DNA from: a virus
Strand: one strand, 5' to 3'
Virus record (IMG/VR): IMGVR_UViG_3300046777_002716
Coordinates: 1-64,000 of that record
Length of the DNA stretch: 64,000 nucleotides
Of this stretch, positions 3,326 through 12,077 are shown in pieces (position 1 is the first letter of the stretch; every line of letters starts with the position of its first letter). The position numbers and the translations under genes were made by a program. The notes beneath the pieces were generated by a model. That model searched no databases. It saw only the letters and a program-made list of their open reading frames with translations, and was not told the DNA's origin.

Positions 3326-3384
3326 AAATTAATAGCAAACATTTAAAATATATTTTACTACATTTAAAATATATATTGAATAAA

Positions 3385-3408
3385 AAAGAGAGGTTTAAAC
3401 CTCTCTTT
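3385..3408. terminator. Perfect inverted repeat, probable bidirectional terminator
   Basis: The segment is a perfect 24-bp palindrome (12-nt arms around TTT/AAA) with A-rich and T-rich flanks. It separates the sugar cluster from the small genes upstream and could end transcripts in either direction. Confidence 0.6.
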
Positions 3409-3545
3409 AAAATATTTTAAATAGATAATTTTTTTACTGGAAATTATAAACCAGGCGGAGAAAGAATTCCCCATCCGCACCACCAATCCTTGAGAGAGAT
3501 TGGAAACTCATAAGAGGGTCATATTTGACTCCACCAGGGCAAGTT

Positions 3546-7675: not shown

Positions 7676-8020
7676 ATGAAATGTGCTTGGCATCTATGTT
7701 TAGAAGAAGCAGTACTTTACAATGGCAGAGGCAAGTTTTGCTCCAAACAATGTAAAAACAAGTATCATGTAGACCAGAGAAGAAAGAAACTCAAGCAAGA
7801 CAGTATAGCATATAAAGGAGGTGCTTGTCAATGTTGTGGTTATAATCGTTCTCACTGGGCATTAGAGTTTCACCATTTAGACCCTAAAGAAAAAGATTTT
7901 CATTTATCTAAAGGTGGTCATACTAGAAGTTGGGAAAAAATCAAAGAAGAATTGGATAAATGTATTCTAGTATGTTCTAACTGCCATTCCGAAATTCATC
8001 ACGGAATTCGTGAATTATAA
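7676..8020 (+). CDS. HNH homing endonuclease-like protein
   Basis: The 114-residue protein has two zinc-binding pairs (C-A-W-H-L-C at the N-terminus; C-Q-C-C in the middle) and the HNH core L-E-F-H-H-L-D-P with a closing C-S-N-C-H-S-E-I-H-H. It is one of four plus-strand genes in the window and lies inside the tRNA array between tRNA-Asn and tRNA-Ala, as expected for a mobile free-standing endonuclease. It has its own late motif. Confidence 0.85.
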   Translation: MKCAWHLCLEEAVLYNGRGKFCSKQCKNKYHVDQRRKKLKQDSIAYKGGACQCCGYNRSHWALEFHHLDPKEKDFHLSKGGHTRSWEKIKEELDKCILVCSNCHSEIHHGIREL

Positions 8021-10254: not shown

Positions 10255-10257
10255 AAG

Positions 10258-10350
10258 TTGATAAGGGCACCTGTCCGAATTTAAAGTGCGCTTGGGTCGT
10301 TTAATCCACCGCCGTCACACTAATGTTTGGTGGCGATGGACCCTTATCAA
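10258..10350 (-). ncRNA. Structured RNA candidate, 93 nt, closed by a 10-bp stem
   Basis: TTGATAAGGG (10258-10267) pairs perfectly with CCCTTATCAA (10341-10350). Inside, TCCA/CGCC pairs with GGCG/TGGA, and a GCAC/GTGC hairpin follows. There is no ORF and no T-loop. It lies between tRNA-Ser(GCT) and tRNA-Ile, in the way stable RNAs C and D lie in the T4 tRNA cluster. Function unknown. Confidence 0.55.
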
Positions 10351-10364
10351 ATCCCCGAAGGGAA

Positions 10365-10436: not shown

Positions 10437-10441
10437 TCGAA

Positions 10442-10554
10442 GTAAGAGACACTAGTATCATCTTACCTGTTTCAGTTTTCGGACTGAAAAACCTATCACT
10501 AACCAACCTAAGTTTCATAACGGAGGAAGTGAATCTCCGTGACCATAAAGGTCA
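10442..10554 (-). ncRNA. Four consecutive hairpins between tRNA-Ile and tRNA-Phe
   Basis: This 113-nt spacer contains GTAAGA/TCTTAC (10442-10466), TTTCAGT/ACTGAAA (10470-10489), CGGAG/CTCCG (10521-10539) and TGACC/GGTCA (10540-10554). No start codon frame or tRNA is present. It may be a non-coding RNA or a processed spacer. Confidence 0.4.
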
Positions 10555-10556
10555 AG

Positions 10557-10636: not shown

Positions 10637-10711
10637 TGGAAATTCAGGAATCGAACCTGTCGGGCAGTAAGGGCGATCAACTCCCCACTTTCCTGTGTTC
10701 CACACATTTCC
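10637..10711 (-). tRNA. tRNA-like gene, isotype undetermined
   Basis: The acceptor GGAAATG/AATTTCC and T-arm ACAGG-TTCGATT-CCTG are good, and the length (75 nt) is normal. The D-arm is a tight GTGT/ACAC hairpin without the usual GG loop. The anticodon arm (GGGG...GCCC) gives no 7-nt loop with U33 and a purine at 37; TGA or GAT are the nearest readings. It is a decayed tRNA or a tRNA mimic. Confidence 0.6.
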
Positions 10712-10714
10712 AAG

Positions 10715-10865: not shown

Positions 10866-10868
10866 AGG

Positions 10869-10940
10869 TATTCCTAACGGGATTCGAACCCGTGCTACAA
10901 CCTTGAAAGGGTTGTGACCTAACCGCTAGTCGATAGGAAC
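10869..10940 (-). tRNA. tRNA-Glu(TTC)
   Basis: A 72-nt cloverleaf with acceptor GTTCCTA/TAGGAAT, anticodon loop CTTTCAA in a CAACC/GGTTG stem and T-loop TTCGAAT. Confidence 0.92.
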
Positions 10941-10944
10941 TTGA

Positions 10945-11037
10945 GAGAGGGGTATCCCACACGAAGTTACTTACGGATCACGCTTCGTAGCCTTATGGAT
11001 CCTGCCAGGGTCAATCTGGTGCCTAGGAATCCCTCTC
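10945..11037 (-). ncRNA. Structured RNA candidate, 93 nt, between tRNA-Glu and tRNA-Asp
   Basis: A GAGAGGG/CCCTCTC closing stem encloses a second GGATTCC/GGGATACC helix, a CCAG/CTGG hairpin with a 7-nt loop and an ACGAAG/CTTCGT hairpin. No TTCRA T-loop is found, so it is not a standard tRNA. Its length equals that of the RNA at 10258-10350. Confidence 0.5.
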
Positions 11038-11042
11038 CAATT

Positions 11043-11117
11043 CCAGTTATCGCTACGTCATTTCTTACCTAACTGGCAACCTTCAGAATGACGTGGAGAT
11101 TCGTACTGATGATCTCC
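11043..11117 (-). ncRNA. Hairpin plus predicted H-type pseudoknot beside tRNA-Asp
   Basis: On the minus strand a GGAGAT/ATCTCC hairpin (11117-11095) is followed by two interleaved perfect helices: ACGTCATT (11094-11087) with AATGACGT (11062-11055), and CCAGTTA (11076-11070) with TAACTGG (11049-11043). The 8-bp and 7-bp stems cannot both form without a pseudoknot. No ORF. Unknown function. Confidence 0.55.
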
Positions 11118-11119
11118 AA

Positions 11120-11192
11120 CGACCCTATGGGAATTCGAATCCCAGATTCCTACTAGACAGGTAGGCGTGATAGACCACTTCACTATAGGGCC
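11120..11192 (-). tRNA. tRNA-Asp(GTC)
   Basis: A 73-nt cloverleaf with acceptor GGCCCTA/TAGGGTC, anticodon loop CTGTCTA, T-loop TTCGAAT and G73, the aspartate discriminator. Confidence 0.92.
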
Positions 11193-11196
11193 ATGT

Positions 11197-11266
11197 TCAC
11201 CCGAGCAGGATTCGAACCTGCATCTCTTTCCATGGAAAGACGACATACCATTAGCCGCATCGGATG
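11197..11266 (-). tRNA. tRNA, isotype undetermined (6-nt anticodon loop)
   Basis: Acceptor CATCCGA/TCGGGTG (extendable by two pairs) and T-arm GCAGG-TTCGAAT-CCTGC are regular. The anticodon arm is a perfect palindrome TCTTT-CCATGG-AAAGA, leaving only six loop bases, so CAT, CCA and TCC readings all need a distorted arm. Total length is 70 nt. Confidence 0.65.
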
Positions 11267-11270
11267 AAGG

Positions 11271-11361
11271 TGGGAGAGGAGGGAATCGAACCCCCGATGG
11301 TTCTTATGTAACGGTTTTACAGACCGCCGCCACACATATTGCCGACAGTAGCCACTCTCCC
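11271..11361 (-). tRNA. tRNA-Tyr(GTA)
   Basis: A 91-nt class II tRNA with acceptor GGGAGAG/CTCTCCC, anticodon loop CTGTAAA, a long variable arm and A73, all fitting bacterial tyrosine tRNA. Confidence 0.93.
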
Positions 11362-11399
11362 AAATAGTTTATATTTAACGACCGAACTAAAACGGTCAA

Positions 11400-11471: not shown

Positions 11472-11501
11472 ATAAAAGGTTTAGATTGTCAAGGTGCGAT
11501 T

Positions 11502-11581
11502 GTCACTGGAAGATAATGTTTTATCCAGAGGCCCAAGATAAATCTTAGGACTTAGACTGATGCTAGAAGCAGAGCAGTGAC
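11502..11581 (-). ncRNA. Structured RNA candidate transcribed from the 11609-11637 promoter
   Basis: CAGTGAC (11581-11575, read on the minus strand as GTCACTG) pairs with GTCACTG/CAGTGAC at 11508-11502. The stem encloses an AAGAT/ATCTT hairpin (about 11533-11549) and a GATAA/TTATC hairpin (about 11511-11525). The segment lies between the promoter's 5' hairpin and tRNA-Lys, so it is either a long tRNA leader or a separate RNA. Confidence 0.4.
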
Positions 11582-11586
11582 TTGTG

Positions 11587-11604
11587 GTGGTCTCTCAACC
11601 ACCC
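11587..11604 (-). repeat. Promoter-proximal 5' hairpin, copy 2
   Basis: The same 18 bases as 9081-9098, here with one more stem pair, beginning about 5 bp after the -10 box. Confidence 0.7.
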
Positions 11605-11608
11605 TTTA

Positions 11609-11637
11609 AGAATACCACTCTGTCCGTTAGGGGTCAA
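11609..11637 (-). promoter_or_regulatory. Sigma-70-like promoter (TTGACC/TATTCT), sister of 9103-9131
   Basis: TTGACC (11632-11637), 17 bp, TATTCT (11609-11614) on the minus strand, directed at the structured segment and tRNA-Lys(TTT). Confidence 0.7.
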
Positions 11638-11642
11638 GTGGG

Positions 11643-11668
11643 TTGTGACACTTAGAGAACTGTCACAA
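11643..11668. repeat. Palindrome upstream of the 11609 promoter
   Basis: Eight-base arms TTGTGACA and TGTCACAA with a 10-nt loop. It takes the place that the GTGCCAGTT palindromes hold at 4339 and 9141, between a transcript end and a promoter. Confidence 0.6.
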
Positions 11669-11673
11669 GCAAC

Positions 11674-11707
11674 AAAAAAGGGGAGGAAACTTTTGGTTTC
11701 TCTCCCC
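11674..11707 (-). terminator. Rho-independent terminator
   Basis: On the minus strand GGGGAGAGAAACC and GTTTCCTCCCC form a stem followed by six T. It lies 25 bp after the stop of the 33-codon ORF. Confidence 0.75.
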
Positions 11708-11732
11708 TGTCTTTTTGCTTTTATGGCAGTTA

Positions 11733-11834
11733 CTACATCTGACCTACCATACTCGCAAACAGGGGAGCACCCTCAATATGCCAATAGCGGCAATCGAGAA
11801 TACTAAACTGTTTTGTGGGCATTGGGTAAGACAT
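11733..11834 (-). CDS. Possible micro-protein, 33 residues
   Basis: This short frame (M-S-Y-P-M-P-T-K-Q-F start) sits exactly between its own promoter (11858-11886) and its own terminator (11674-11707). The ATG would be about 17 nt from the transcript start and has no clear ribosome site. It is either a micro-protein or a small RNA that happens to be open; no family is recognised. Confidence 0.35.
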   Translation of the reverse strand: MSYPMPTKQFSILDCRYWHIEGAPLFASMVGQM

Positions 11835-11857
11835 TGTTTTCGACCTAAGTGTTATTA

Positions 11858-11886
11858 TTTATAATACTTTTATTTTTAAAAGTCAA
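11858..11886 (-). promoter_or_regulatory. Sigma-70-like promoter (TTGACT/TATAAA)
   Basis: TTGACT (11881-11886), 17 bp, TATAAA (11858-11863) on the minus strand, immediately after the 3' end of tRNA-Arg. Confidence 0.65.
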
Positions 11887-11962: not shown

Positions 11963-12048
11963 AAGAGACCTCCTGGTTTGTGCATCGTTGAGAGGCATAG
12001 GAGGGGAAGGACTTATGCGAAGTTTGGACCTCCGCCGCCTATGAGGAT

Positions 12049-12077
12049 ATTATAGGGTATCAGGAGCGGCGTGTCAA
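12049..12077 (-). promoter_or_regulatory. Consensus sigma-70 promoter for tRNA-Arg
   Basis: TTGACA (12072-12077), 17 bp, TATAAT (12049-12054) on the minus strand. The -35 box overlaps the stop codon of the Hc1-like gene. Confidence 0.85.

Follow-up and report, generated by a model that had tools for sequence, protein, structure and literature searches.

Type III antitoxin RNAs (ToxI type) are small, pseudoknotted RNAs that occur as repeat arrays beside a toxin gene. The STAXI motif is described as consisting of repeats of one pseudoknot, frequently near genes for DNA-binding or DNA-manipulating proteins. Phage T4 has two late RNAs, RNA C and RNA D (species 1 and 2), which have been validated by northern blot and are reported as having an as yet unknown function (PMC9697503). 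ROOL and GOLLD are structured RNAs of unknown function that are often located near phage tRNA islands; ROOL has multiple predicted pseudoknots, and many members of GOLLD exceed 800 nt (PMC12286853). We describe here a candidate RNA from a phage tRNA array, called below the pseudoknot RNA, and compare it with these systems.

The window, which is the whole stretch of 64,000 nucleotides (64 kb) analysed here, contains 32 tRNAs according to ARAGORN, all of them (32/32) on the minus strand. In one gap of this array, the original prediction placed a pseudoknotted RNA made from two perfect stems that cross each other, with a hairpin next to them. On reading the sequence, all three are exact: a 7-bp stem (CCAGTTA 11043-11049 with TAACTGG 11070-11076) and an 8-bp stem (ACGTCATT 11055-11062 with AATGACGT 11087-11094), which are interleaved at the coordinates claimed, and an adjacent 6-bp hairpin (GGAGAT 11095-11100 with ATCTCC 11112-11117). 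Because all 32 tRNAs of the window are on the minus strand, the pseudoknot RNA is assigned to this strand as well. Read in this direction, ACGTCATT (11094-11087) is the first strand of the 8-bp stem. The strand had been overlooked by the prediction, as had the distribution of the RNA and its extent, which comprises a 154-nt core together with a 5' hairpin and a second pseudoknot. The features of the locus are as follows.

12049..12077, minus strand: promoter-like TTGACA-17-TATAAT, 12/12 consensus (a sequence match, not a mapped start site)
11119..11193, minus strand: tRNA-Asp(gtc), the upstream neighbour (ARAGORN)
10941..11118, minus strand: the whole RNA unit, which is the 178-nt gap between tRNA-Asp(gtc) and tRNA-Glu(ttc), set by the tRNA ends (ARAGORN)
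11095..11117, minus strand: P0, 5' hairpin GGAGAT/ATCTCC, optional, with a stem that varies between loci
11094 down to 10941, minus strand: conserved core, 154 nt (match of model R1)
11055..11094, minus strand: P1 of pseudoknot 1, 8 bp, 11094-11087 with 11062-11055 (exact pairing)
11043..11076, minus strand: P2 of pseudoknot 1, CCAGTTA 11076-11070 with TAACTGG 11049-11043, crossing P1
10945..11037, minus strand: P3, the closing helix, GAGAGGG 11037-11031 with CCCTCTC 10951-10945
11028-11024 with 10959-10955, minus strand: P3b, the continuation of P3
11005..11019, minus strand: P4, hairpin of the type A apical domain, CCAG/CTGG
10961..11002, minus strand: pseudoknot 2 (type A), P5 crossed by P6
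11002-10998 with 10979-10975, minus strand: P5, GGATC with GATCC
10988-10983 with 10966-10961, minus strand: P6, ACGAAG with CTTCGT
10867..10940, minus strand: tRNA-Glu(ttc), the downstream neighbour (ARAGORN), which the R1 match abuts at 10941 with zero gap

R1 is a covariance model built from 19 sequences. Its match to the window (10941-11094, minus strand, 151.7 bits, E 2.3e-37) arises by construction, since the window is one of these sequences. The promoter-like match is about 930 nt upstream of the pseudoknot RNA, ahead of this part of the array.

The window also contains other elements that are recorded here as side observations. An abiF RNA (RF03085, 49.3 bits; 11968-12004, minus strand) is found shortly after the 12/12 promoter match and heads the part of the tRNA array that holds the pseudoknot RNA, and a wcaG RNA (RF01761, 71 bits) is found at 3411-3511 on the minus strand. 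The other long gaps of the array, at 10255-10364 (with an inverted repeat, TTGATAAGGG/CCCTTATCAA), 10437-10555 and 11473-11886, perhaps hold further structured RNAs. Four stretches of the minus strand are tRNA-like and uncalled by ARAGORN: 8154-8224 matches the Rfam tRNA model, while 10639-10713, 11198-11270 and 11276-11363 have T-arm-like sequence by eye. Further interleaved stems occur at 3346-3429, 7900-7967, 20977, 25177 and elsewhere.

The stems had been considered improbable by chance, which is not supported for the stems taken alone. The 64-kb window was shuffled 100 times with its dinucleotides preserved, and 93 of the shuffles contained interleaved perfect stems of 8 and 7 bp within 75 nt, so that the raw observation of the stems is not significant at the scale of the window. 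The shuffled windows had a mean of 6.66 such occurrences and the real window has 26 (overlapping counts in both). The energy of the best nested fold gave z -1.31 for the window (22/200 shuffles at least equal), z -2.20 for S-CREM1 (3/200) and z +0.21 for locus L010 (110/200), and is not clearly below that of shuffled sequences for the window and L010 copies. These energies speak neither for nor against the fold, because the folding program cannot form pseudoknots.

The pseudoknot RNA was found in 45 loci, namely the window, the cyanophage isolates S-CREM1 and S-CRM01, and 42 IMG/VR contigs. A blastn search with the gap against 50,697 phage records gave one relative, Synechococcus phage S-CREM1, and two further matches at chance level; S-CREM1 has the same Asp-X-Glu order and is 88.0% identical to the window over the first 92 nt. 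The same search with the copies of L010 and L054 found S-CREM1 and weak chance matches only, that with the L075 copy weak chance matches only, and that with the S-CRM01 copy S-CRM01 itself and one weak match only. The 42 contigs were found by pattern scans, with membership judged from the flanks, and comprise 32 loci of one 34-locus set (the rest of which is S-CREM1 and the window) and ten later loci (L130, L136, L139, L140, L143, L146, L147, L149, L151 and L154). An exact 21-mer of the window had zero matches in IMG/VR. Shorter or gapped patterns returned 24, 12, 25, 28, 26 and 66 contigs, of which 1, 9, 8, 28, 26 and 42 respectively were members, where the last two results include L129, the IMG/VR copy of S-CRM01.

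A search with R1 gave 15 of 19 records below E 1e-10. Fourteen of these were already known carriers, several of them used in building the model, and S-CRM01 alone was new (135612-135760, E 8.6e-12), having been missed by all patterns used before. There was no credible R1 match in S-PM2 (E 0.025, a weak match that recurs at E 0.036 in a second search), S-SRM01 (E 0.96), DSL-LC02 (E 0.06) or DSL-LC03 (none). One exact pattern, scanned against genome_contigs (84,980 species), matched 22 loci, and no cyanobacterium appears in their titles; R1 finds nothing in these 22 loci at E 0.1, and all of them look like chance. In the data examined the family is confined to phages, and, because the genome_contigs scan used one exact pattern, divergent cellular copies may exist.

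From 5' to 3', the fold consists of the optional P0, pseudoknot 1, and the closing helix P3/P3b, which holds one of three apical domains. Only 1 nt precedes the core in L075. A hairpin resembling P0 is present in the Asp-Glu gap of S-PM2, without a credible copy of the pseudoknot RNA, and P0 may for this reason be a trailer of tRNA-Asp. P1 is about 8-12 bp across the family, usually with a one-base bulge; in the window it extends to 11085/11065 past a bulged A when judged from the relatives, and the energy model applied to the window strands alone gives only the 8 bp. P2 is 5-10 bp, with several members keeping only 5 perfectly paired bp. AGNNA is found in the loop that separates the second strand of P1 from that of P2. 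Among 35 aligned loci, 20 have a type A apical domain, which includes that of the window and consists of hairpin P4 and pseudoknot 2, with loops CATAAG and GTAAGT (the latter varying to ATAAGT). Five have type B, a pseudoknot of other sequence (S-CREM1, L032, L054, L136, L143), and ten have type C, a short hairpin (L033, L049, L130, L139, L140, L146, L147, L149, L151, L154).

A likeness of GUUGCCAGU..GGUAA to the 530 loop of 16S rRNA was rejected, because GGUAA is restricted to a single sequence group and GCCAG becomes GCUAG when its partner strand in P2 changes as well. In the group that has GGUAA, a small inner hairpin (UUGCC/GGUAA) competes with P2; it is not conserved.

Covariation was measured on a model-made alignment of the 35 loci (32 distinct rows, 1318 cells, 46 pairs). 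Over the distinct rows, 92.5% of the cells pair compared to 83.2% after shuffling, and the covariation score is 0.282, compared to 0.075-0.094 for slid structures. None of 500 shuffles reaches the observed value of any of five covariation measures, and pairing falls to 39-52% when the partners are slid by 1-3 columns. A lack of compensatory changes in homologues was one half of what the original prediction had named as its refutation, and such changes are present: both sides change in 33 of the 46 pairs (12.4 when shuffled), made up of 10/11 in P1, 1/6 in P2, 11/13 in P3 and P3b, 4/5 in P4, 5/5 in P5 and 2/6 in P6. The crossing stems P2 and P6 are the least variable helices. The double change in P2 is from C-G to U-A, in 4 rows that probably represent 2 lineages; one pair of P2 is invariant, and its sixth pair is unformed in 8 of the 32 rows. 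P4 to P6 are blurred in this alignment because the three apical types are placed in common columns, and P2 of L075 is out of register and was scored as unpaired.

Chosen distinct strands were also aligned by eye, with the types kept apart, and compared with 2000 shuffles. In this hand register, the paired cells are 183/188 for P1 (18 rows), 66/77 for P2 (11 rows), 81/84 for P3 (12 rows) and 31/32 for type B P5 (4 distinct rows), and 0/2000 shuffles reach the observed pairing for any of the four; both sides change in 11 of the 12 columns of P1. The other counts are indecisive, because there are too few rows (2-4). They are 18/18 cells for type A P4 (4 rows; reached by 11/2000 shuffles), with the variants CCAGA/TCTGG, CCATC/GATGG and CCTC/GAGG; 15/15 for type A P5 (3 rows; 67/2000), with GGATC/GATCC, GGATT/AATCC and GAGTT/AACTC; 11/12 for type A P6 (2 rows; 119/2000), which varies in S-CRM01 alone (TCAGTT/AACTGT, 5/6 pairs); 28/28 for type B P6 (4 rows; 34/2000); and 18/18 for type C (3 rows; 237/2000). 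Both alignments are biased to the fold, since one was fitted by the model and the other registered by hand.

Two single copies illustrate the compensatory changes. S-CRM01 re-pairs nearly every helix from P1 to P6: CGATTC.CTG with CAG(A)GAATCG in P1, CTAGT with ACTAG in P2, ACCTAC with GTAGGT in P3, CCTC with GAGG in P4, GAGTT with AACTC in P5 and CAGTT with AACTG in P6. In L075 both stems of pseudoknot 1 are replaced and the topology is kept, with UUGCCUACCC/GGGUAGGACAA crossed by GGUAGAUUUU/AAAAUUUACC, about 10 bp each; the AGNNA loop and the type A 3' domain are retained. One copy counts against the fold, namely L066 (12645-12798, minus strand), in which the P3 strands come from different variants and are mismatched in the middle; it is a mosaic, perhaps produced by recombination. 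It is concluded that a pseudoknotted RNA in the tRNA array is supported, and that, judged by these alignments, the family is almost certainly a real conserved RNA that folds as pseudoknot 1 followed by a helix-closed domain. That interleaved stems of 8 and 7 bp are expected somewhere in a shuffled window would suit an origin of the stems by chance or as an assembly artefact. Such an origin is contradicted by the covariation and by the occurrence of the RNA in 45 loci, two of them in sequenced isolates, and can be given practically no credence: it is conservation with compensatory change that places the RNA beyond chance.

The pseudoknot RNA looks noncoding. No sense frame is open throughout in more than 4 of the 32 distinct sequences, and the copies contain no closed ORF longer than 20 aa. 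Its 3' junction is constant: in 31 of the 35 aligned loci, a tRNA starts within 1 nt of the 3' end of the R1 match (Glu 25, Arg 2, Pro 2, Leu 1, Val 1). In L049 the next ARAGORN tRNA is 79 nt off, and the intervening stretch is tRNA-like by eye and uncalled. The R1 match ends in AUCA in 14/35 and in AUCU in 12/35. In three loci (L139, L147 and L151) the flanks scanned, 500 nt upstream and 400 nt downstream, are free of tRNAs. Each of the three has a TTGACA-17-TATAAT match (12/12) about 180-210 nt upstream of the RNA, a second promoter match just downstream of it, and other structured modules between the first promoter match and the pseudoknot RNA. L010 has a 10/12 promoter match about 45 nt ahead of the core. 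Six further loci (L165, L167 and L171-L174) have the flanks of L151 without the pseudoknot RNA, and R1 finds nothing in them at E 0.1; from these empty sites, the RNA seems to come and go as a single unit. Given a junction that is independent of the tRNA, the loci with promoter matches and the empty sites, the pseudoknot RNA looks like a self-contained, movable RNA gene, and we consider it likely that it is an independent gene rather than a spacer.

Other elements were noted in the same surroundings. A second recurrent module of cyanophage tRNA arrays, AAGGTAAGGAAA...GGAGCATGGGA(stem)GGATACCGCACCTGCCTT (varied in some), was found in L029 (1711-1788), L034, L151, L164, L165 and L167-L175, while a 15th match, L166, looks like chance. 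It is located either after a promoter-like site or between two tRNAs; the inner stem varies from locus to locus and is GAAA-capped in L175, and Rfam gave no match over the module in L029, L151 and L172. In L139 (2160-2239, minus strand), an element directly after a TATAAT-like box consists of a hairpin and then interleaved stems, for example GTGCTCC/GGAGCA crossed by GTAGGTTC/GAACCTAC, which differ between phages by eye. This element is also found in L177-L182 (S-SKS1, SynMITS9220M01, P-SSM2, ACG-2014f, AG-345-F15 and S-SCSM2R). A query beginning with it matched 55 phage records; it precedes tRNA-Pro in 2 of 6 records examined, and purM in P-SSM2.

Our best explanation is that the locus is a gene for a noncoding phage RNA, about 115-180 nt in length, with two consecutive structured domains, the first being pseudoknot 1 and the second closed by a helix and usually enclosing another pseudoknot. 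The RNA would be transcribed together with the tRNAs. Its 3' end would be made by RNase P when this cuts the 5' end of the following tRNA, as is suggested by the constant 3' junction, and its 5' end would be freed by 3' processing of the preceding tRNA; release by tRNA processing in this way is probable. The compact fold would make the RNA stable. It could then act in trans during infection, presenting a rigid surface for the binding of a protein, from host or phage, or of the ribosome. This is the least certain step, and we put it forward tentatively, as plausible. The explanation taken whole, a trans-acting noncoding RNA freed by tRNA processing, seems to us evenly balanced. Within it we favour an RNA that offers its partner a shape rather than a sequence, because it occurs at several junctions, has copies with promoter matches, and can have its pseudoknots replaced with the topology kept. 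A more speculative and unlikely version is that, in T4-like cyanophages, interchangeable pseudoknot modules move between tRNA arrays and promoter sites and are directed in trans at a host protein, as decoys or scaffolds; the target might be a tRNA-targeting defence or a factor associated with the ribosome. If this reading were true, an arms race with the partner would lie behind the exchange of whole pseudoknots (in L075 and among types A, B and C).

The RNA could instead work in cis, as a folded spacer that insulates the neighbouring tRNAs, blocks exonucleases or guides cutting. A spacer of this kind would fit the position of tRNA-Glu directly downstream in 25 of the 35 aligned loci and of tRNA-Asp as the nearest upstream tRNA in 23 (14-78 nt off), the filling of the same gap by other hairpins in S-PM2, and the further structured modules found in cyanophage transcripts after promoters or in the spaces between tRNAs. 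It accounts poorly for the copies that precede Arg, Pro, Leu and Val tRNAs, and for the three loci that lie downstream of a promoter match without nearby tRNAs. Nor are spacers obligatory, since 12 of the 31 inter-tRNA gaps in the window are 4 nt or less (19 are longer), and a mere spacer could do without crossing stems and without loops that are conserved (CATAAG and GTAAGT in type A, AGNNA in pseudoknot 1). We regard a cis element as rather unlikely, and give it this much weight because of the 25/35 loci with tRNA-Glu and the other structured modules in the arrays. An RNA antagonist of a defence or toxin, similar to a type III antitoxin and occupying a toxin or a tRNA-cutting nuclease, would be consistent with two successive pseudoknots in a phage, with the exchange of entire pseudoknots (again L075 and the three apical types), such as could result from an arms race, with the abiF RNA in the same array, and with the argument that phage tRNAs serve to evade tRNA-targeting defences (PMC10264068). 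We consider such an antagonist quite improbable, given that the two pseudoknots of the RNA do not repeat a single unit, that its direct neighbours in the array are tRNAs, and that there are zero Rfam family matches.

It is very improbable that the RNA is a diverged tRNA, a piece of a tmRNA or some other known class of RNA. It sits among tRNAs, its P3 has 7 bp, and the R1 match terminates in ACCA in S-CREM1 and L143; the usual final bases are the AUCA or AUCU given above, not CCA. ARAGORN calls no tRNA or tmRNA in the gap. The covariance models of Rfam 15, searched up to E 10, give no family match in the gap beyond a snoRNA fragment of 8.4 bits on the opposite strand, and zero matches over the copies in S-CRM01, S-CREM1 and L075 (E up to 0.05) and in L139, L151 and L029 (E up to 0.5). 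Six loci (L034, L052, L063, L071, L074 and L078) hold the pseudoknot RNA together with a separate permuted tmRNA called by ARAGORN, and only 7-8 nt matches are found between the RNA and the tmRNA of L034. The permuted tmRNA genes in the cyanophage tRNA arrays of these six loci have tags such as ANNIVAFSRSKSTALV and ANKIVAFSRSKVATLV.

The family is apparently undescribed. Among the open-access papers matched in literature searches, no title or start of an abstract names such an RNA. The papers on S-CREM1, S-CREM2 and S-SCSM1 describe finding noncoding RNAs by tRNAscan-SE and Rfam, and a family outside Rfam stays unseen by this approach. The S-CREM1 paper reports abiF, wcaG, manA and glnA from Rfam, and the word pseudoknot is absent from its main text (PMC9964418). 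The pseudoknot RNA is unannotated in the records of both sequenced isolates, S-CREM1 and S-CRM01. S-CREM1 carries the RNA and infects Synechococcus sp. CB0101 in culture (PMC9964418), which makes an infection experiment feasible; the role of noncoding RNAs in phage tRNA clusters is thereby open to a plain experiment.

The known system that had been suggested as an analogue is RNA C and RNA D of T4. The likeness holds for location and size, and does not extend to homology. Both lie in a phage tRNA cluster on the same strand as the tRNAs, the lengths are similar (139 nt for rnaC and 119 nt for rnaD), and rnaD is 1 nt from tRNA-Arg, just as the pseudoknot RNA abuts a tRNA. R1 finds nothing credible in T4 69500-73500 with filters off (best E 3.2), blastn gives no match at E 1 or below, and RNA C has a tRNA-like T-arm sequence, CGGGTTCGAATCCCG, which the pseudoknot RNA lacks. 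By the tests made, they are analogues by place and not relatives. ROOL and GOLLD share with the pseudoknot RNA a position in or near phage tRNA islands, but it has no match to their Rfam models, nor to that of STAXI. R1 finds one credible copy in each of the 15 records, with no tandem repeats of one pseudoknot. Type III antitoxin RNAs are likewise small and pseudoknotted, whereas here there are two pseudoknots, unlike in their stems and loops, and the direct neighbours are tRNAs.
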